DNA of 64,000 nt from Leucothrix pacifica (GTDB taxonomy: Bacteria > Pseudomonadota > Gammaproteobacteria > Thiotrichales > Thiotrichaceae). The stretch is from the NCBI RefSeq assembly GCF_003172875.1, contig NZ_QGKM01000030.1:1-64000 (forward strand), in the 5' to 3' direction. Every line of letters begins with the position of its first letter. Position 1 is the first letter of the stretch. The position numbers and the translations under genes are program-made. Under the pieces are notes generated by a model. The model did not search any database, was not told the origin of the DNA, and saw only the letters and a program-made list of their open reading frames with translations. Shown in pieces: positions 23,126 to 33,962 of this stretch.

Positions 23126-23356
23126 GCTGTGCGAAATGCAAGACCGCATCCGGTCGGAGATCGGCAGGATGCTCACGGTTTATTTAGGAAAGCATATCTA
23201 CCTATAGAGGCGCATCAATTACTGTGCATTATGCTGACGACACGCACACTTGCTGTAGAACCTCTCCAAGTATCAACTCCATATCTGCATGACCGTCCAT
23301 GGGGACATACAACCTAAGTATCTTCAAGTCTAAGGTCCCTTAAAGTAAAAAAGTGC

Positions 23357-23369
23357 TACACTTTGTGTA
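23357..23369 (+). promoter_or_regulatory. Palindrome TACACTTTGTGTA before the Phd remnant
   Basis: TACAC-TTT-GTGTA is a perfect inverted repeat 21 bp before a short open frame that looks like the start of a Phd/YefM antitoxin. Such antitoxins repress through short palindromes overlapping their promoter, so this is a likely relic operator. Confidence 0.4.
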
Positions 23370-23390
23370 CCTATTTAAAAGGTTTTTCCT

Positions 23391-23447
23391 ATGCAAGCCG
23401 TTGATGTATTCACAGTCAGAGATTTGCGCAACTGTGTCGCTCATTAG
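23391..23447 (+). pseudogene. Remnant of a Phd/YefM-type antitoxin
   Basis: The frame from ATG 23391 reads MQAVDVFTVRDLRNCVAH and then stops. The first 13 residues match the start of prevent-host-death antitoxins (VFTVRDLR), and an AAAAGG ribosome site precedes the ATG. The rest of the antitoxin and any toxin are missing. The surrounding 578-bp gap (23126-23703) otherwise holds only the palindromes listed here. Confidence 0.5.
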
Positions 23448-23628
23448 GCAATGGTTTACTGGCAGTCAAACAGTCCCAGTATATTGAAATTGTCAGACTC
23501 ATCTCAAATGAGAGAAAATTTCTACTTGCTTCAGCTCATTGAAGCTTGTACCGTAATATGCGACTAAGTTGCAGTCGGCTACAGGATCTTCGTGTCCTAC
23601 CTTATACCGCTCCCCTCTAATGCACGGG

Positions 23629-23678
23629 AGGTTTCAACTGCAAACCGTATTAATACGGTTCATTATTTTGTGAAACCT
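23629..23678 (+). promoter_or_regulatory. Nested palindrome in the leader of the pVip operon
   Basis: An outer perfect 8-bp inverted repeat, AGGTTTCA (23629-23636) and TGAAACCT (23671-23678), encloses a perfect 18-bp palindrome AACCGTATTAATACGGTT (23643-23660). It ends 25 bp before the start codon of the 809-residue protein, and a GGAG ribosome site follows. It could be an operator for a dimeric regulator or a leader RNA structure. It is asymmetrically spaced (6 and 10 bp), so two separate sites are possible. Confidence 0.55.
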
Positions 23679-23703
23679 AAACCCTATTTATTTTGGAGTA
23701 TCC

Positions 23704-26133
23704 ATGTGCAACAAAGATCCGTTACTTGACGTAGCGAACCACGATGAAAAATCCGATCCTAAAGAACAATTCTTGCAAGCGCTTGAAGAGTATGGGGTTA
23801 AAATTAATGATGAAATTCAACTAGCTGCTGAACATCTATTTAGTGGATGGTTGCAGCAAAAAAGAGATCAGGATTTTTTGGATTCTGGTTTTGATTTTAG
23901 CTATAACAGTATATTTAATCTGTTTGATTATCGTAAAAGCTCTCCAAGTATAGGCTTTTCGCCATTTGAAATTTCGGCCAATATAGCAAAAAAATACTTT
24001 CCGACATCGCCCTATGATCTCTTCGAAACGGGATTGGGAAAAGCCTTGGGGCTTGAGCAGCACTTCAATTTTTTCGTTCTTGCTGTATATGGAGAAAATT
24101 TTTTCTTCTCACAAGCACTTTTCGATGAAAAAGCATTAACGTCATTGGAGCCATCCGAAAGGCGAAGAATTCTTTGGAGGTTTTTTGGTCTACTGCTCAA
24201 TAAAGACTGTGCTTTCCATATGCCTTTCGTTATTGGCTTTGATTCTGGTATTGAGCTCAAAAGCCTTACTTCAGCAGCTTTATTAAACCTACTTCCCGGG
24301 CCTCCAACTGAAAACACACATGGCCTTTTACAAGGTATTGAGTTTCTTAAAGCATGGATTAGATATGATGCTGAGGCAAACCGATTAACATCTCATCGTT
24401 TGGAGTTGTTGGGTGAAATTCAATTTTTATGGAAGAAGCTAGGAGAGGAGCTGACGAATGCTGAACAAGATTTATCGCCGGAAGTGCTCAAGACGGCTCA
24501 AAGGTGGCTTGATGAAACCAAACGAGAATTATTTTTCTTGCTCTATCTATATACCAACTTGGCAGAGCTTTCAGGCGAAAAGACTAAATTTTGGGCTAAT
24601 GAGTTAGACCAATTTTATTGGGAGTATTGTGAGAAAAATGACGACAATACTGATAGCTTATCTGAAAATGAGAAAACAGCTCGCAGAAACGATGTTCTCG
24701 AGCAGTTTTGCGTACAACTAACACTACAACAAGTAGAAACTTGGGCTAAGTATGCTGCTTATGAGTCTGCTGTTAGCTTTCTAAAGCATGATGCATATTT
24801 TGATCCGAGTACCCTTTTATTTTATTTTGGTGAAAGGTGGTGGGATACAAATCACTTCAGCATCTGGAAGAAAGGTTTCGAGGAAGGGCTTTCTAGCCTA
24901 AATAGCGAAGAAAGATTTTACACCCTATCTAATTACTTGAAGCTTCTGAAACAAGTATCTTATTCAAAACAGAGCAACTCATGTCTTAATGGTATAGATG
25001 AAGCACTTGTTTGTCTGGGCCAAAGATTTACTGAAAGAGATAAAGATTGGCAGGAAAGTTATTGGAATTGGTGTTATAGCCTTCTAATTGATTTGCATAA
25101 AGATAGTAATTTTCCGGAGAAACTAATGCCGGAATGGACGCTATTGGCCAACGGGCGATTAAGTGGTGAATTACGCCTTCCAGCCATAGAAAAAAGTATT
25201 GAAGTTATCTTTAGGGAGTTCACTGGGGATTTAGAATTTTCGCGGGCCTCTCAGCTTAAAGAACTATTAGAGCTGATAGAGTATTCAGAACCCACAAAAA
25301 ACCTCCGGTATACAGATAAAGGCATTGGACTTCTGCGGGGCAAGCTTTCCAAACTACCGGTAAGTGAAGAGTCGGTAGAAAGAGATGGTCATGAGTTACT
25401 GTCAGACTTATTGCAAAAGCTAGATGCTGTGGAGCCTGTTAAAGCCCTTCGTCACCGCCTAATATTGTTACGCTCATCCCAAGCACCATTTTCTGATAAA
25501 TCAGTTTACCGAGGCGATGAATCAGGTATTAGTACACTGCACGTAAACTGGAATTCACCTTTCGCAGCACTTGCCCATCACTTTGCCGAAGACTGGCTCA
25601 GGCACAGCCAATTTGATGACCCTGAAAAACGTGAAAAATGGCTTAGCCGGTATCAATATAAACGCTCTGAAGATCAACTTCTTAGCTATGGCGAAGTGGA
25701 AGAATGGAAACGTTTAATGGCTTTCTCCCAGGAGTTGACCGAATTCTGCTTAAACCGTCTTCGTCTTCGAAAAGGAGAGAGGACAAGTGAGGGTAAATAT
25801 ACTGAAGAACAAGTAATCGAAAGATCATCAATCTGGCGTAAGGGTTATTTAAGGGCTTTAACAGAACTAGGGTTCGACCTAGGTGGAAAAGTGCATAAAA
25901 CGGTAAATTTTACCAAACAGTATGACCCGGATGAATCCGTTCGAACGACTGCCAAGGAATGTTACCGTGCAGTCCGCCGTGACAAAAAAACAAAGCGTTC
26001 AATTCAAGGTTTGAAGCGCGGTATTATCGCTGCCGAGTGGTGGTTACTCGTCTGCCAACGCAGAGAACTCGGCTTAGAAATATCAACTGAAGGAGCTCGT
26101 AGAACCCGACGCAATTTATTGCGCAACCCATAA
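23704..26133 (+). CDS. Unrecognised 809-residue protein, first gene of the pVip operon
   Basis: The ATG at 23704 is six bases after GGAG, and the frame runs intact for 809 codons. I recognise no domain. It is rich in charged residues and Trp, appears almost entirely alpha-helical, and has no signal peptide or membrane segment, so it is probably cytoplasmic. The last 75 residues are strongly basic (RAVRRDKKTKRSIQGLKRG and then RRTRRNLLRN), consistent with nucleic-acid binding. I see no P-loop, no nuclease motif and no clear HEPN motif. Its codon composition is more AT-rich than the flanking metabolic genes, which suggests horizontal acquisition. It is followed 129 bp later by prokaryotic viperin on the same strand, so a role in the same antiviral function is inferred. 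Confidence 0.8.
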   Translation: MCNKDPLLDVANHDEKSDPKEQFLQALEEYGVKINDEIQLAAEHLFSGWLQQKRDQDFLDSGFDFSYNSIFNLFDYRKSSPSIGFSPFEISANIAKKYFPTSPYDLFETGLGKALGLEQHFNFFVLAVYGENFFFSQALFDEKALTSLEPSERRRILWRFFGLLLNKDCAFHMPFVIGFDSGIELKSLTSAALLNLLPGPPTENTHGLLQGIEFLKAWIRYDAEANRLTSHRLELLGEIQFLWKKLGEELTNAEQDLSPEVLKTAQRWLDETKRELFFLLYLYTNLAELSGEKTKFWANELDQFYWEYCEKNDDNTDSLSENEKTARRNDVLEQFCVQLTLQQVETWAKYAAYESAVSFLKHDAYFDPSTLLFYFGERWWDTNHFSIWKKGFEEGLSSLNSEERFYTLSNYLKLLKQVSYSKQSNSCLNGIDEALVCLGQRFTERDKDWQESYWNWCYSLLIDLHKDSNFPEKLMPEWTLLANGRLSGELRLPAIEKSIEVIFREFTGDLEFSRASQLKELLELIEYSEPTKNLRYTDKGIGLLRGKLSKLPVSEESVERDGHELLSDLLQKLDAVEPVKALRHRLILLRSSQAPFSDKSVYRGDESGISTLHVNWNSPFAALAHHFAEDWLRHSQFDDPEKREKWLSRYQYKRSEDQLLSYGEVEEWKRLMAFSQELTEFCLNRLRLRKGERTSEGKYTEEQVIERSSIWRKGYLRALTELGFDLGGKVHKTVNFTKQYDPDESVRTTAKECYRAVRRDKKTKRSIQGLKRGIIAAEWWLLVCQRRELGLEISTEGARRTRRNLLRNP

Positions 26134-26262
26134 AACCGATTCAACTATTCAACTTAACTTATTTGGTGTACTGGAGCCTGATGCTCCTACTCTGACGTTA
26201 AACGTCCACCATGTAAAAACTTCACTTCCTGCGAAGAGCAGGTATTGTCAAGGAATATACGC

Positions 26263-27231
26263 ATGCACACGAAAAACTCTATTGTCGGAAACAACTCAAA
26301 TCCGATCACTTCATCCACTATCCATCAGGTAGAGGATCTTACTATTAACTGGCATATCACTGAGGCGTGTAACTACCGTTGTCAGTATTGCTACGCTCAC
26401 TGGAAAGATCAGCCAGATCGGCGTGAATTGTTTCATCACCCTGATCGTACTATCGACTTGTTGGAACACGTATTCCGGTTCTTTCACCCTGAAAACACCC
26501 AAAACCCATTAAGAAAAACGCTTTCATGGAAATCGGTTCGCCTGAATATTGCGGGGGGTGAGCCTTCAATTCTTAATGGTCGCTTAGTTGAGATCGCTCG
26601 GGCAGCCCGTGAGATTGGGTTTCGGCTGTCCATTATCAGCAACGGCTCTAAACTTTCGCATGAGGCACTCCAATTATTAGCGCCAGACCTGACTTGTCTG
26701 GGGATTAGTTTGGATTCAAACGACCCGGCGATCAACCGGGCAATTGGCCGAAACGATAGGCACGGAAAGTTACTCAACGTAAATGAACTGATAGAAAATT
26801 TACGCTCAGCACGATTTCTAAACCCCTTAATGACCATAAAGCTCAATACAGTGGTAAACCGCCTGAATGCAGGAGAAGACCTGAGTCATTTGGTTGAACA
26901 GGTTCAGCCGGATCGTTGGAAGGTTCTGCGTATGTTGCCGGTTCTTGATACATCTCTGGCTATTAGTGACAAGCAATTTGCAGCCTATGTTCGCAGGCAT
27001 GAGGCTTTCGCTTCGATCCAATGCATTGAAGATCACGAGGATATGTGCGAATCATATCTTATGATCGACCCCTTTGGCCGCTTTTTCCAGAATCGTCCCA
27101 CACTGTCAAGCGATGGATACGTCTATAGTAAACCTATTCTGTCAGTCGGAGCTGGAGCTGCATTCTCCGAAATGGCGTTCAACCCAATTGGTTTTCAATC
27201 GCGTTACACCGATGGGCAAGGTCAGTCATGA
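26263..27231 (+). CDS. Prokaryotic viperin (pVip), radical SAM 3'-deoxy-3',4'-didehydro-nucleotide synthase
   Basis: From ATG 26263 (AAGGA nine bases upstream) a 322-residue radical SAM protein is encoded. The cluster-binding motif is ACNYRCQYCYAHW, with Cys36, Cys40 and Cys43. Viperin-type landmarks follow in order: RLNIAGGEPSIL (GGE at 98-100), SIISNGSKL, CLGISLDSNDPAINRAIGR, LNTVVNRLNAGEDL, VQPDRWKVLRMLPV and ESYLMIDPFGRFFQN. These match viperin and pVips better than MoaA-like enzymes. pVips make ddh-ribonucleotides that terminate phage transcription. An upstream in-frame TTG at 26245 is less likely. It overlaps the next gene by four bases. Confidence 0.9.
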   Translation: MHTKNSIVGNNSNPITSSTIHQVEDLTINWHITEACNYRCQYCYAHWKDQPDRRELFHHPDRTIDLLEHVFRFFHPENTQNPLRKTLSWKSVRLNIAGGEPSILNGRLVEIARAAREIGFRLSIISNGSKLSHEALQLLAPDLTCLGISLDSNDPAINRAIGRNDRHGKLLNVNELIENLRSARFLNPLMTIKLNTVVNRLNAGEDLSHLVEQVQPDRWKVLRMLPVLDTSLAISDKQFAAYVRRHEAFASIQCIEDHEDMCESYLMIDPFGRFFQNRPTLSSDGYVYSKPILSVGAGAAFSEMAFNPIGFQSRYTDGQGQS

Positions 27232-27416
27232 GAAAATATAGTTCAGATAAAGACTGGAATGTAGAAATCAGGAAGCTTGTTAAGCTTGGCTGGGTATACA
27301 AGCGTGGAGGTAAACATGCTCGTCTTATAAGTCCCGATGACTCTCAAGGGCTGGTTATTCCAACCTCTCCGAGTGATCGCCGGAGTTTGCATAACTTCAG
27401 GCGTTTACTGAGATGA
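27228..27416 (+). CDS. HicA-like small protein overlapping pVip
   Basis: The 62-residue protein reads RKLVKLGWVYKRGGKHARL then a short strand and basic helix (SDRRSLHNFRRLLR). This resembles the HicA/YcfA double-stranded-RNA-binding-like fold, including a His at the place of the HicA catalytic residue (GKHARL). It overlaps the pVip stop in an ATGA, so translation is coupled. No HicB antitoxin follows. It may be an RNA-binding accessory to viperin or a toxin relic; the fold call is moderate. Confidence 0.65.
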   Translation: MRKYSSDKDWNVEIRKLVKLGWVYKRGGKHARLISPDDSQGLVIPTSPSDRRSLHNFRRLLR

Positions 27417-27437
27417 ACTTGCTTCAGTAATTACAAC

Positions 27438-27468
27438 GGCCGGTGAATATCTCACTCGGCCATTTTTT
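27438..27468 (+). terminator. Rho-independent terminator closing the pVip operon
   Basis: GGCCG-GTGA pairs with TCAC-T-CGGCC (one bulged base) across a five-base loop, and ATTTTTTG follows. It lies 21 bp after the HicA-like stop, which marks the three-gene unit as complete. Confidence 0.75.
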
Positions 27469-27671
27469 GTCAGATTGCTGTCTGTCATGAGACACATAGT
27501 TTTCCTACGTGATGACTGGCAGCCAGCAGCCTGATAAAGACTCAGTCATTCAGAGAGCCATATACAAGCATTCACCCCATACCCCGCAACAACACCGCAG
27601 GCTGCACACTTATCCGCCGATGCAAATACTGCCCCCAATTACCAGCATCGACACATTCACCACCAACGCCG

Positions 27672-28080
27672 TCAACAACCCCACCCAAACCAGATCAGCA
27701 GCAGGAATTCCAGATACAAACTTTTGCGGATCACCGATAGGCGCGCACCCAGCACATTTAACACCGAAGCCTCATACACCTGACTCGCCTGCCCAAGTAA
27801 TTCACGGGCGCCGGCAGCAATACGCTTTTGTGCCAGCACATCCTGACCATCATTCAACCACGCCGGCCCCACATAACGCTCAATTGAAGTTCCCAGCGCA
27901 CCATCAGCGACAATCCCTTCAAACCAGAAACGGGTTTGCACACCCTTCTGGCGATGAATCGCGGCGATATTGAATTCCAGCGTTTTACCGGCGACCGCAT
28001 AGCTAATCCGGTCACCGATATTAATCCCGATACGACGCGCCTCCCGGTCTTCCATCGACATATCAGGTATCGACTGATCC
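27672..28080 (-). pseudogene. Fragments of an FtsX-like permease and a second membrane protein (possibly DUF4400)
   Basis: On the minus strand one open frame joins pieces with different origins. Near 28080 to about 27900 it reads SMEDREARRIGINIGDRISYAVAGKTLEF and GVQTRFWFEGIVADGAL, like the periplasmic part of FtsX/YbbP-type ABC permeases. From there to 27672 it reads SIERYVGPAWLNDGQDVLAQKRIAAGARELLGQASQVYEASVLNVLGARLSV. This recalls the DUF4400 membrane proteins of integrative conjugative elements, which is a tentative call. Neither is complete, so this is decayed mobile or accessory DNA. Confidence 0.55.
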
Positions 28081-28684: not shown

Positions 28685-29101
28685 TTACTTAGGAACAGTT
28701 ATGCGTGGCGCAAGCCCTAAACGTTTCACGCGCCTTGCAAACTTGCGGTCGTCAAATGATGCCATTGCTTCACAGTCTTGATAATGCGCATGATGAAGGG
28801 CATCTGCAAAATCAAGGCCATCGGCTAGCCCTGATATTGCTTGTTCGATTTCCTGTTGAGACTCAACAGAAATGTGTGGCTGACTCAGTAAATTTTGAAA
28901 AACTGCAATAATGTCTTCGGGGTTAAACTGATAGAAACCACGTAAGATCCACTCAAACTCCAGAATCACCGTCTTACTGACTTTTAGTGATTGCCCAGAT
29001 TCGAAAAGGCGCTTTGCGGCCAATTGTTGCTTGTTCGCTTCCTTGTCATCTTCATCATGAATGTAATAGCGAGCGAGGACGTTGGTATCTAAACCAATCA
29101 T
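28685..29101 (-). CDS. vapC: PIN-domain toxin VapC
   Basis: The 138-residue PIN protein starts MIGLDTNVLARYYIHD (first acidic residue Asp5) and has the conserved KTVILEFEWILRGFY helix and late acidic residues in GLDFADALHHAHY and MASFDDRKFAR. It is a Mg-dependent ribonuclease toxin. Its ATG overlaps the antitoxin stop in an ATGA, so the pair is translationally coupled. It appears intact, unlike the other vapBC nearby. Confidence 0.9.
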   Translation of the reverse strand: MIGLDTNVLARYYIHDEDDKEANKQQLAAKRLFESGQSLKVSKTVILEFEWILRGFYQFNPEDIIAVFQNLLSQPHISVESQQEIEQAISGLADGLDFADALHHAHYQDCEAMASFDDRKFARRVKRLGLAPRITVPK

Positions 29102-29334
29102 GGTTTAGCCAACAAGCTGGCAACGTCAAAATCTACGGGTACTGCTTTCCTTTTGCTTTTAAGCATACCAAAACCACTATTTAAAACAGGTTTCGGGTTT
29201 TCTTTGACAACCAATTGGATAAGTCCATCTACTAGAGAAAAGGTAACTTTACTGCCTTTGCGAATGCCTAGTTCTTGCCGGATTTTAAGTGGTATTGTCA
29301 CCTGACCTTTGCTTGTAACTGAGGTTGTTTCCAT
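29098..29334 (-). CDS. vapB: AbrB/MazE-type antitoxin VapB
   Basis: The 78-residue protein opens TTSVTSKGQVTIPLKIRQELGIRKGSKVTF, the SpoVT-AbrB swapped-hairpin DNA-binding domain, with a C-terminal tail that would wrap the toxin (GMLKSKRKAVPVDFDVASLLAKP). It precedes vapC with a four-base overlap. It probably represses its own promoter in the AT-rich gap 29335-29439. Confidence 0.9.
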   Translation of the reverse strand: METTSVTSKGQVTIPLKIRQELGIRKGSKVTFSLVDGLIQLVVKENPKPVLNSGFGMLKSKRKAVPVDFDVASLLAKP

Positions 29335-31106: not shown

Positions 31107-33962
31107 ATGTCAAAGGTTTTCATTAGTTATAGCCACGATTCAGATACACACCGTGAGCAGGTATTAGCCTTATCCAATCATTTGCGGGGGGATGGTGTTG
31201 ACTGCTGGATTGACCAGTATGAGCCAGCACCGCCTGAAGGCTGGCCACGCAAGATGGACAGGGGTATTCGGGAGGCTGATTTTGTACTCATGGTGTGTAC
31301 CGAAATCTATCTGAAGCGGTTGCAGCTGGAAGAGGAGGAAGGTAAAGGCCTTGGTGTAGCGTGGGAAGGCTCGTTAATTTACAACACGCTGTATCGTGAT
31401 CGGACGCTCAACCATAAATTTATCCCCGTGCTGTTCTCCTCAGATGACAAAGCCTTTATTCCCACCATTTTATTCGGTAACAGTCATTACGACCTGAGTT
31501 TGCCTCGTGGATACGATCACCTGTACCGCCATTTGCGTGGCGAATTAGGCGAAACAATGCCTCCGCTGGGTAAAAAGCGCTTTGTTCGTACCATTCATTC
31601 TGATGCTTTGCCAACGGTTGAAGGTGAGTTGTTTGGTCGTAAGGATGAGTTGGCGCTGCTGGATGAGGCTTTGCTGGATGCGGATACCCATGTTGTACAG
31701 TTTGTGGCCTCTGGTGGTACGGGGAAAACCAAATTATTGCGGCATTGGTTGGATGATAACCACGACAAGATTGAAGCACTGATTGCGTGGTCGTTTTATT
31801 CGCAAGGCTCCAGTGAGGATAAACAGATTTCCGCGACACCCTTTTTCATCCAGGCATTGAAATCGCTGCGGGCCGATAAAGACATTTCTGATTTTAATAC
31901 GGAGGAAGAGAAGGGCGAGTATATCGCTGATTTACTGCGTGAGCGGCGGTGCTTGCTGGTGCTGGATGGTTTAGAGCCCTTGCAGCAGGTGGGGCGCGGT
32001 ATGCGGGGTGAATTGAAGGATCGGGCGATTCGGAAAATGCTGCGTTGTCTGATGGGGGATCATAGCAGCTTGTGCATTATTACGACGCGCTTGCCGGTGC
32101 GTGAGCTGAAAGGACGACGGCGGGTGGTGCAGCATGATTTGCAGAATCTTGCGCCGGAAGATGGAGTGGCTTTATTGCGTTCGTTTACTGAACCTTATCC
32201 GGTGCATGGGCGTGATGTAGATATGCTGGCGGCGGTGGAAGAATATGGGCGGCATGCTTTGGCACTGCATTTGCTGGGGAATGCGCTGGCGACTTATCTG
32301 GATGGGGATGTGCGGAAGCGGGATACGCTGGGTGAGTTGATTGGTGATTATGATGATGTGGAGCGGCATGCGTTTAAGGTGATGCAGGCTTATGAGCAGT
32401 GGCTGGAGGGGACGGTTGAGCTGAAGTTGTTGTATCTGCTGGGGTTGTTTGACCATCCGGTGGAGCAGGACGTTTTGGAGGTGCTTTGGGAGGCTGGGAT
32501 TCCGGGGTTGACTGAAGGTGTGGATAAGAAGGCTTGGTTGGTGGCGCGGCGGGATTTGTTGGGTAAGTTTCAGATGATGTCGGAGCATGAGGGGCGGGAT
32601 GATTTGTTTGATTGTCATCCGTTGATTCGGGAGTATTTTGGACGGCAGTTGCAGGAGAATGAGGGGGAAGCTTGGCGGCAGGCGCATACGGTTTTGTATG
32701 AATATTATAAGGGGTTGCCGGAGAAGCTTTGGGGGAAGTATTTGCCGGATACTCTGGAAGAGATGCAGCCGTTGTTTCGGGCGGTGGTGCATGGGTGTTT
32801 AGCGGGTGATATGAGTGAAAGCTTCCATGAAATTTATTTCATGAGGATTGAGCGCGGGACGAAAATATACCTAAAAAATCAGCCTACTGAACGGTTGCAA
32901 TTACTTAGTCTTTTTTTTGAAGTAGCTTGGAGCCAATTCTCATCAAAACTTGATCCAGCAACTAGCTCCGTAATAGCAGAATGGAGTGGCATGGAGCTTT
33001 GGAGGTTAGGTAGGCCACGCGAATCGATACCTCTTTTAACATCACGTTTAGATTTTGGTTACAAGCACCAAAATCATGACATCATTGTGGGCATCACGAC
33101 CAATTTGGTTGAAATATATAATTGTCTTGGATTCTTAAAGAAAGCCATATCATTAGCGAATGCATTTGACTCTTACTTAGGAGGCATCAAATACGAAATC
33201 GACTTTAAAAACATTACTGCTTTGTGCTCTAAAGCAGAAACACTTCATAAACTGGGGAAGCATAAAGAGTCTCAGGCGCTCTTTGAAGCAGCCTCAGGAA
33301 TTCAAGCAAATAGAGAAGGAAAAGATAGACCAAAAGAGCTACTATCGTTTCAAGGCTTTCAATACTGCCAATTATTGATCGACCTTAGACAATATGAAGA
33401 AGCATACAGTTTATCCAAATCAATAATTTCAATAGCTTCTAACCATAGAGACCATAACGATGCCTGCTTAGGTGCTATTTGTGCTGGTGCAATACTCACC
33501 AGAGCACCTTATGGAAACCGTAGAGCAGCAATAGAGCAATTAAATTTTTCTATTGATACATTTAAATTGCTAGACCAGTCCCACGACTGGTGGCCTTATG
33601 CGTTGATCTACCGCTCAGAATACTTTAGATGTGACTTCAATTATGAAGCAGCAAAAAATGATCTTTTAGAAACCTACGAAATCGCCGAACCCTCCGGCAT
33701 GCGCCTCCACCTAACCGACTATCACCTGGAAATGGCCCGCCTAATCCTAGCCATAGAAGCCGACCCCGATCAATACAAAGAAGCCACCCCAGACCGAGAA
33801 CAAAGAACCCTCCCCACAGAACTAGCCGACCCGGACGAACCCGGCATCCTAACCCTCGAAGGACATATCCAAGCAGCCGACAAACTAATCCAAGACACCG
33901 GCTATCACCGCCGCGATGCAGAGCTAGCCGAACTCAAACAACAGGCAGGCATGTCATGCTAA
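31107..33962 (+). CDS. SEFIR-STAND NTPase-TPR protein, probable antiphage sensor
   Basis: The 951-residue protein has an N-terminal SEFIR/TIR-like domain (residues about 1-150, starting SKVFISYSHDSDTHREQVLALSNHL). A STAND NTPase core follows, with Walker A ASGGTGKT at 201-208 and Walker B CLLVLDGLEPL near 287. A winged-helix-like region follows, then a helical TPR-like array (about 580-900). In known bacterial STAND defence proteins the repeats sense a phage component and the N-terminal domain acts as effector, often on NAD. Composition changes sharply inside the gene: G-rich to about 32800, AT-rich to about 33660, C-rich at the end. This suggests module exchange. Function is inferred from architecture. 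Confidence 0.87.
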   Translation: MSKVFISYSHDSDTHREQVLALSNHLRGDGVDCWIDQYEPAPPEGWPRKMDRGIREADFVLMVCTEIYLKRLQLEEEEGKGLGVAWEGSLIYNTLYRDRTLNHKFIPVLFSSDDKAFIPTILFGNSHYDLSLPRGYDHLYRHLRGELGETMPPLGKKRFVRTIHSDALPTVEGELFGRKDELALLDEALLDADTHVVQFVASGGTGKTKLLRHWLDDNHDKIEALIAWSFYSQGSSEDKQISATPFFIQALKSLRADKDISDFNTEEEKGEYIADLLRERRCLLVLDGLEPLQQVGRGMRGELKDRAIRKMLRCLMGDHSSLCIITTRLPVRELKGRRRVVQHDLQNLAPEDGVALLRSFTEPYPVHGRDVDMLAAVEEYGRHALALHLLGNALATYLDGDVRKRDTLGELIGDYDDVERHAFKVMQAYEQWLEGTVELKLLYLLGLFDHPVEQDVLEVLWEAGIPGLTEGVDKKAWLVARRDLLGKFQMMSEHEGRDDLFDCHPLIREYFGRQLQENEGEAWRQAHTVLYEYYKGLPEKLWGKYLPDTLEEMQPLFRAVVHGCLAGDMSESFHEIYFMRIERGTKIYLKNQPTERLQLLSLFFEVAWSQFSSKLDPATSSVIAEWSGMELWRLGRPRESIPLLTSRLDFGYKHQNHDIIVGITTNLVEIYNCLGFLKKAISLANAFDSYLGGIKYEIDFKNITALCSKAETLHKLGKHKESQALFEAASGIQANREGKDRPKELLSFQGFQYCQLLIDLRQYEEAYSLSKSIISIASNHRDHNDACLGAICAGAILTRAPYGNRRAAIEQLNFSIDTFKLLDQSHDWWPYALIYRSEYFRCDFNYEAAKNDLLETYEIAEPSGMRLHLTDYHLEMARLILAIEADPDQYKEATPDREQRTLPTELADPDEPGILTLEGHIQAADKLIQDTGYHRRDAELAELKQQAGMSC

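Follow-up and report, generated by a model that had tools for sequence, protein, structure and literature searches.

The first 64,000 nucleotides (nt) of contig NZ_QGKM01000030.1 of Leucothrix pacifica (hereafter, the window) contain an operon of three plus-strand genes, which encode an 809-residue protein, a prokaryotic viperin (pVip) and a HicA-like protein, in this order, and are closed by a terminator. The 809-residue family is a dedicated pVip partner: its gene adjoins pVip directly on the 5′ side in 13 of 13 genomes (Marinobacteraceae, Pseudomonadaceae, Vibrio, and the window), with fixed gene order and spacing to pVip. All operons of the 809 type share a conserved leader, before this gene, and a conserved spacer, before pVip, and a different effector end follows the same front end in Vibrio. 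The operon is tentatively read, at somewhat less than an even chance, as a multi-part anti-phage system, in which a solenoid protein and two RNAs would form a front end controlling viperin and small-protein effectors.

Operon layout

The following features were assigned in the window.

23526..23554, plus strand: sigma-70-like promoter (TTGCTT, 17 nt, TACCGT), at a position conserved in relatives
23570..23703, plus strand: conserved leader RNA, predicted to be structured (model R2; covariance model, covariation)
23643..23660, plus strand: variable leader hairpin AACCGTATTAATACGGTT, a palindrome; stem rebuilt with other sequences in relatives
23704..26133, plus strand: 809-residue open reading frame, family 'A'; full-length homologues align from the same Met-Cys start
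25687..26130, plus strand: basic, strongly conserved C-terminal domain of the 809-residue protein (residues 662–809; isoelectric point about 10)
26160..26262, plus strand: spacer RNA up to the pVip start codon (model R1), with a predicted three-way junction and a variable hairpin
26164..26211, plus strand: three-way junction of the spacer RNA (closing helix TGGTG/CACCA; hairpins GGAGC/GCTCC and GACGT/ACGTC)
26228..26242, plus strand: variable hairpin CCTGC-GAAGA-GCAGG, just 5′ of the pVip ribosome-binding site
26263..27231, plus strand: pVip, radical S-adenosylmethionine (SAM) protein of 322 residues from the corrected start (profile scores; start realigned to homologues)
27228..27416, plus strand: HicA-like small protein of 62 residues with a conserved His30; ATGA overlap with pVip
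27438..27461, plus strand: terminator hairpin followed by TTTTTT (−15 kcal/mol, z −2.8)

An initial annotation of this DNA had described three plus-strand genes, the last two overlapping, with a palindromic leader and a terminator directly after them. All were present, the palindrome being the variable hairpin of the conserved leader RNA. The second conserved RNA, in the spacer, was absent from that account. Chance was excluded as an explanation for the trio by its recurrence in the 13 genomes (three with another third gene) and by the flanking genes inspected, which vary between loci carrying the operon.

Occurrence of the 809-residue family

The 809-residue protein had been called unrecognised, and no family could be found for it: Pfam, NCBIfam, PADLOC, PHROGs, and PDB sequences gave no credible match. 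Searched as a single sequence against plasmids, phages, viral contigs, genome contigs, 63 family genomes and a 369-genome class sample, it returned nothing outside its own genome. As library matches and single-sequence relatives were both lacking, pVip loci were gathered (80 loci, one genome per species, plus two from viral contigs) and their flanks were searched. A homologue (31–34% identity, E < 1e-100) was found directly 5′ of pVip, on the same strand, at nine loci (five Marinobacter, Stutzerimonas nitrititolerans, Atopomonas hussainii, and two Vibrio).

Whole genomes searched with the 809-family profile alone served as an unbiased test. Three further homologues were obtained (Vibrio genus, Marinobacter family, and Stutzerimonas family), and pVip and a small gene come next in all three. 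The profile gave no further homologue in the 369-genome class and 398-genome phylum samples, and no stand-alone copy was seen in the genomes searched with it. The initial annotation had proposed asking whether the large gene co-occurs with pVip elsewhere; it does so in every genome known to carry it. The Marinobacter mobilis copy (L018) is split over two contig ends, with the leader and N-terminus on L113, and may thus be interrupted by a repeat element.

These results bear on the simplest alternative, that pVip, paired with HicA, suffices for defence and the 809-like gene is merely often found beside it. Many sampled pVips do carry hicA with no 809-like gene, and published pVips are said to protect on their own in heterologous hosts. 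The alternative is nonetheless most improbable, as the 809-like gene was never found away from pVip, and its order and spacing are fixed although the inspected flanks differ.

Leader and spacer RNAs

Between the window and Vibrio splendidus, both noncoding segments are better conserved than the DNA of either gene. Identity was 74% for the leader and 77% for the spacer, against 49% for the 809 gene (third positions 38%) and 47% for pVip (third positions 32%). Covariance models detected each RNA in 13 of 13 operons of the 809 type, and about 75 other pVip loci had neither. The spacer RNA occurred once per genome in 13 genomes, and the leader model R2 scored 83 bits (E 3e-23) on the window. Rfam gave no match at E up to 1 over positions 23300–27700.

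In 12 of 12 leaders examined, a promoter with the same spacing was located 171–184 nt before the 809-like start codon. All relatives have TTGAC with TANNNT; the window promoter is weak (6 of 12 positions). Since predicted promoters and terminators in the window were no commoner than in shuffles, the promoter was accepted solely for its conserved position in relatives. With this promoter on its 5′ side, the leader is expected to be transcribed, and the transcript probably starts near 23561.

Five helices were predicted in the leader RNA, including the variable hairpin. Stems in the leader and 5′ of pVip have different sequences in different clades, with the pairing kept: the stem of the spacer hairpin reads CCTGC/GCAGG in the window, TCCGT/ACGGA in most Marinobacter, GGCCTAC/GTAGGCC in Vibrio, and GACCGCA/TGCGGTC in Pseudomonadaceae. 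Plain alignments of both segments gave almost no covariation in RNAalifold because the variable hairpins were misaligned, and model-based alignments and per-sequence folds were therefore used. With these, covariation was 0.119 for the spacer (0.067 shuffled, at most 0.054 slid) and 0.106 for the leader (0.050 shuffled, at most 0.040 slid; 99.7% of cells paired). The support for the leader and spacer being structured RNAs is moderate, as the alignments were fitted to the structures and came from about five clades only.

The leader and spacer RNAs of many operons (L015, L017 of Marinobacter algicola, L020 of Stutzerimonas nitrititolerans, and L110) have in common a hairpin GAGC(C/T)TGATGCTC; the window and Vibrio leaders have other sequence at this place.

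It is highly unlikely that the conserved segments are DNA operators, i.e., inverted repeats bound by a regulator, and not RNA structures. In favour, several of the segments form inverted repeats, conservation is common among repressor sites, and GAGC(C/T)TGATGCTC is present in both segments of many 809-type operons. However, the conserved promoter lies 5′ of both segments, and one segment is internal to the operon; some helices change sequence yet keep pairing, with loops and junctions conserved; and each segment has one hairpin entirely without common sequence.

Alternatively, the RNAs might be protein-free, riboswitch-like leaders, which would sense a nucleotide or infection signal and control the 809 gene and pVip, with the 809-residue protein acting later as a scaffold or activator of viperin and HicA. 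Their location in 5′ leaders, one behind the conserved promoter and one abutting the pVip ribosome-binding site, and the invariant unpaired stretches of both fit this account, and a nucleotide signal is plausible because viperin handles CTP, GTP, and UTP. It is considered unlikely: the RNAs never occur without the 809-like gene, though solo pVips and those with other partners (types B and C, below) would also need control, and a metabolite switch would not usually comprise two different RNAs in a single operon.

The 809-residue protein

The 809-residue protein was modelled by AlphaFold2 as an all-helical solenoid (predicted local distance difference test, pLDDT, 67); the C-terminal part alone gave pLDDT 76 and a predicted template modelling score (pTM) of 0.77. 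In fold searches, the best Z was 7.2 for the whole model and 8.6 for the C-terminal model, and many unrelated helical repeats were tied. As the matches were generic helical solenoids only, a nuclease or other enzyme fold can be neither claimed nor excluded. The initial annotation had suggested sensor, nuclease, or immunity parts of a composite viperin system; the composite viperin operon holds, and no nuclease or immunity fold was found in the 809-residue protein.

The C-terminal 148 residues are strongly conserved and basic (isoelectric point, pI, 9–10; about 5.7 for the whole protein). When the window was compared with Marinobacter changyiensis, identity was 31% in the N-terminal part, 64% in the C-terminal part, and 64% in pVip; the corresponding values for V. 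splendidus were 28%, 60%, and 40%. By these identities, the N-terminal part is fast-evolving. At residues about 483–535, the window protein has an insertion of ~42 residues weakly resembling the segment that follows (local score 51, with no shuffle above 42); it may be a duplicated helical hairpin.

Viperin gene

By profile scores and motifs, gene 2 is assigned to the prokaryotic viperins. It scored 328 bits with NCBIfam NF038283 (cut-off 180) and 315 bits with the PADLOC pVip model, compared with 63 bits for the MoaA profile (cut-off 284), which bears out, by profile score, its earlier description as viperin-type. Solved viperins and viperin-like enzymes matched it at E 1e-18 to 1e-23. The window pVip contains CNYRCQYC (radical SAM CxxxCxxC) and NIAGGEP (viperin-typical NxAGGEP), and the three cysteines and GGE were invariant across the 8 pVips compared. 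The start was moved from TTG 26245 to ATG 26263, which stands behind AAGGA, because the spacer RNA and ribosome-binding site extend to 26262 in all homologues.

A tree was built of 83 pVips without a MoaA outgroup. Of the ten 809-type pVips known at that point, eight, that of the window among them, form one clade (support 100/99), and all eight are accompanied by hicA. The other two, from Vibrio, group with Pseudoalteromonas and Idiomarina pVips (100/98).

A second pVip is present in the genome of the window (L009, 8176–11060), cut by the end of contig C67. The divergent 648-residue gene beside it corresponds to the PADLOC ankyrin-type partner over the first two thirds of the latter but has no ankyrin repeats. 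Homology of the 809-residue protein to this gene was tested, and no similarity was found.

HicA-like protein and the third gene

The 62-residue protein scored 94 bits with the PADLOC HicA-like model and 25.0 bits with Pfam HicA PF07927, just below the cut-off of 27. His30 of the HicA fold was invariant in 55 of 55 pVip-linked homologues. The one HicB family searched, HicB_lk_antitox PF15919, gave no match in the whole genome, and after the hicA-like gene the terminator comes before any further operon gene.

Three Vibrio operons have the hicA slot filled by an unrelated 118-residue protein with several CxxC motifs (L090 and L094, 10981–11337; L109, 3536–3889, minus strand), the C-terminus of which matches PHROG families of unknown function. 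On Pseudoalteromonas megaplasmids (L011, 7951–9258; L012, 7954–9261), a DUF4145 gene, not HicA, overlaps the pVip stop; the third slot after pVip thus seems generally exchangeable.

These observations also bear on a role of the RNAs as antitoxins against a toxic operon protein, similar to RCd22 of AbiF (PMC12373285) or type III toxin-antitoxin pairs. The invariant HicA-like histidine and the missing PF15919 are in keeping with such a role, and a structured RNA beside a defence toxin has a precedent in AbiF (PMC12373285). However, the same RNAs are kept in Vibrio without HicA, and many pVip-hicA loci of other types lack them; a toxin neutralised in this way would have to be pVip or the 809-like protein. 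The antitoxin role is regarded as quite unlikely.

Partner types and possible exchange of the effector end

Two other partner types were found at pVip loci. Type B is a divergently transcribed ankyrin protein of about 900 residues (27 loci). Type C is a protein of about 630 residues directly 5′ of pVip (11 loci, among them a viral contig; two loci are partial), with no credible match in Pfam or PADLOC; its loci include L028, L031, L035, L037, L043, L046, L051, L056, and L095. No locus had more than one partner type beside its pVip, and hicA accompanies all three. Homology of the 809-residue protein to the B or C partners was tested without similarity being found, and the profiles of the three types do not align.

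At type B loci L063, L068, L052, L034, and L062, inverted repeats of a C-run and a G-run were observed in the interval that separates pVip from the ankyrin gene, within about 130 nt 5′ of pVip; one example reads GTACCCCCC..GGGGGGTAC, with TTTCAT after it. They are possibly another conserved regulatory element.

The 809-like protein and its two RNAs behave as one inherited module, which appears to be paired with a different effector set in Vibrio. This is suggested by the Vibrio operons, where the C-terminal domain is 60% identical to that of the window but pVip only 40%, the two Vibrio pVips in the tree belong to another well-supported clade, and hicA is replaced in all three operons. Since the front end is more conserved than its pVip, the comparison points to an exchange of the effector end in Vibrio or to a transfer of the front end onto another pVip lineage.

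Proposed mechanism

Viperin makes chain-terminating ddh (3′-deoxy-3′,4′-didehydro) nucleotides. In the multi-part operon tentatively proposed here, the 809-residue solenoid protein and the two RNA segments, i.e., its own leader and the pVip leader, would form a regulatory or sensing front end, and viperin and the HicA-like protein, putatively of double-stranded RNA-binding or RNase type, an effector pair. The solenoid protein would bind both RNA elements via its basic C-terminal domain and, when bound, may keep its own synthesis and that of the effectors low. Infection, presumably by a phage, would be read by the fast-evolving N-terminal part, and repression would be relieved.

Several points weigh against this proposal. 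An RNA-binding fold was not recognised in the models of the 809-residue protein, where only generic HEAT/ARM-like solenoids matched. About 5 distinct clades underlie the covariation, and the majority of helix positions are invariant. The ribosome-binding site of pVip was predicted to be highly paired, yet no more so than in controls with shuffled upstream sequence, and simple occlusion of this site by the RNA is therefore not supported. Moreover, the RNAs could act without the 809-like protein.

A more specific form of the proposal is possible, though doubtful: a viperin immune system in which the solenoid and its two cognate RNAs are a transferable sensor/regulator module that switches on viperin and an RNase-type effector during infection. 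If true, this would be, to our knowledge, the first RNA-controlled viperin system, and viperin would be served by at least three unrelated types of partner (809-like, ankyrin, and about 630 residues).

The operon suggests that some viperins of bacteria are not lone enzymes but belong to a controlled system of several parts. It makes viperin control directly testable, being compact, with a dedicated partner and with RNAs exactly in the leaders of the partner gene and pVip. Viperins of the 809 type are modular: the same front end precedes pVips of two lineages and third genes of two kinds, and large partners of other types accompany other pVip-hicA loci.

Surrounding genes

On the 3′ side of the operon, the window contains a toxin-antitoxin pair of PIN-domain and AbrB-like type (28685–29334) and a TIR/SEFIR–NB-ARC–TPR protein (31107–33962; PADLOC bSEFIR, 169 bits). 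Transposase genes are found around the PIN/AbrB pair and the SEFIR protein, giving a small defence patch.

Comparison with known systems

The viperin-HicA part of the operon is known. A hicA gene directly downstream of pVip defines HicA class 10 (Gerdes, mBio 2024, PMC10865869), a paper that credits Bernheim 2021 for the adjacency. The window fits this arrangement, with hicA directly 3′ of pVip and a 4-nt overlap; the gene order, the conserved histidine, and the lack of a visible adjacent HicB are shared. The available part of the paper does not mention the 809-residue family or the RNAs, and three 809-type operons (Vibrio) differ from the class as seen there in having another third gene. The initial annotation had regarded the trio as undescribed, which does not hold for pVip-hicA, an adjacency published in that source and covered by a PADLOC HicA-like model. 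Its view of pVips as stand-alone or kinase-linked has likewise been overtaken, as PADLOC PDLC02908 already models a large ankyrin partner and the hicA neighbour was known. The novelty is therefore confined to the 809-residue gene and the RNAs. These are without counterpart in the libraries and literature searched, where no description of the family or the RNAs was found (subscription papers and preprints were mostly outside the coverage).

Among the prokaryotic viperins (NF038283, PADLOC pVip), gene 2 is a full member by score, CNYRCQYC, and NIAGGEP, but here pVip is inside a fixed operon with a dedicated large protein and, as predicted, two structured RNAs. The ankyrin-type pVip system (PADLOC PDLC02908, type B) is similar in combining pVip-hicA with one large partner at its 27 loci. 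That partner, however, is unrelated to the 809-residue protein (hhalign probability 0.2%) and runs the opposite way, its loci are without both RNA elements, and PDLC02908, like all PADLOC models, does not match the 809-residue protein. Finally, AbiF and its associated noncoding RNA RCd22, which acts as an antitoxin for its neighbouring defence gene (PMC12373285), resemble the operon in the placement of a conserved structured RNA next to a defence gene. The protein families are different, and one antitoxin RNA is present there, whereas two RNAs flank the first gene here.

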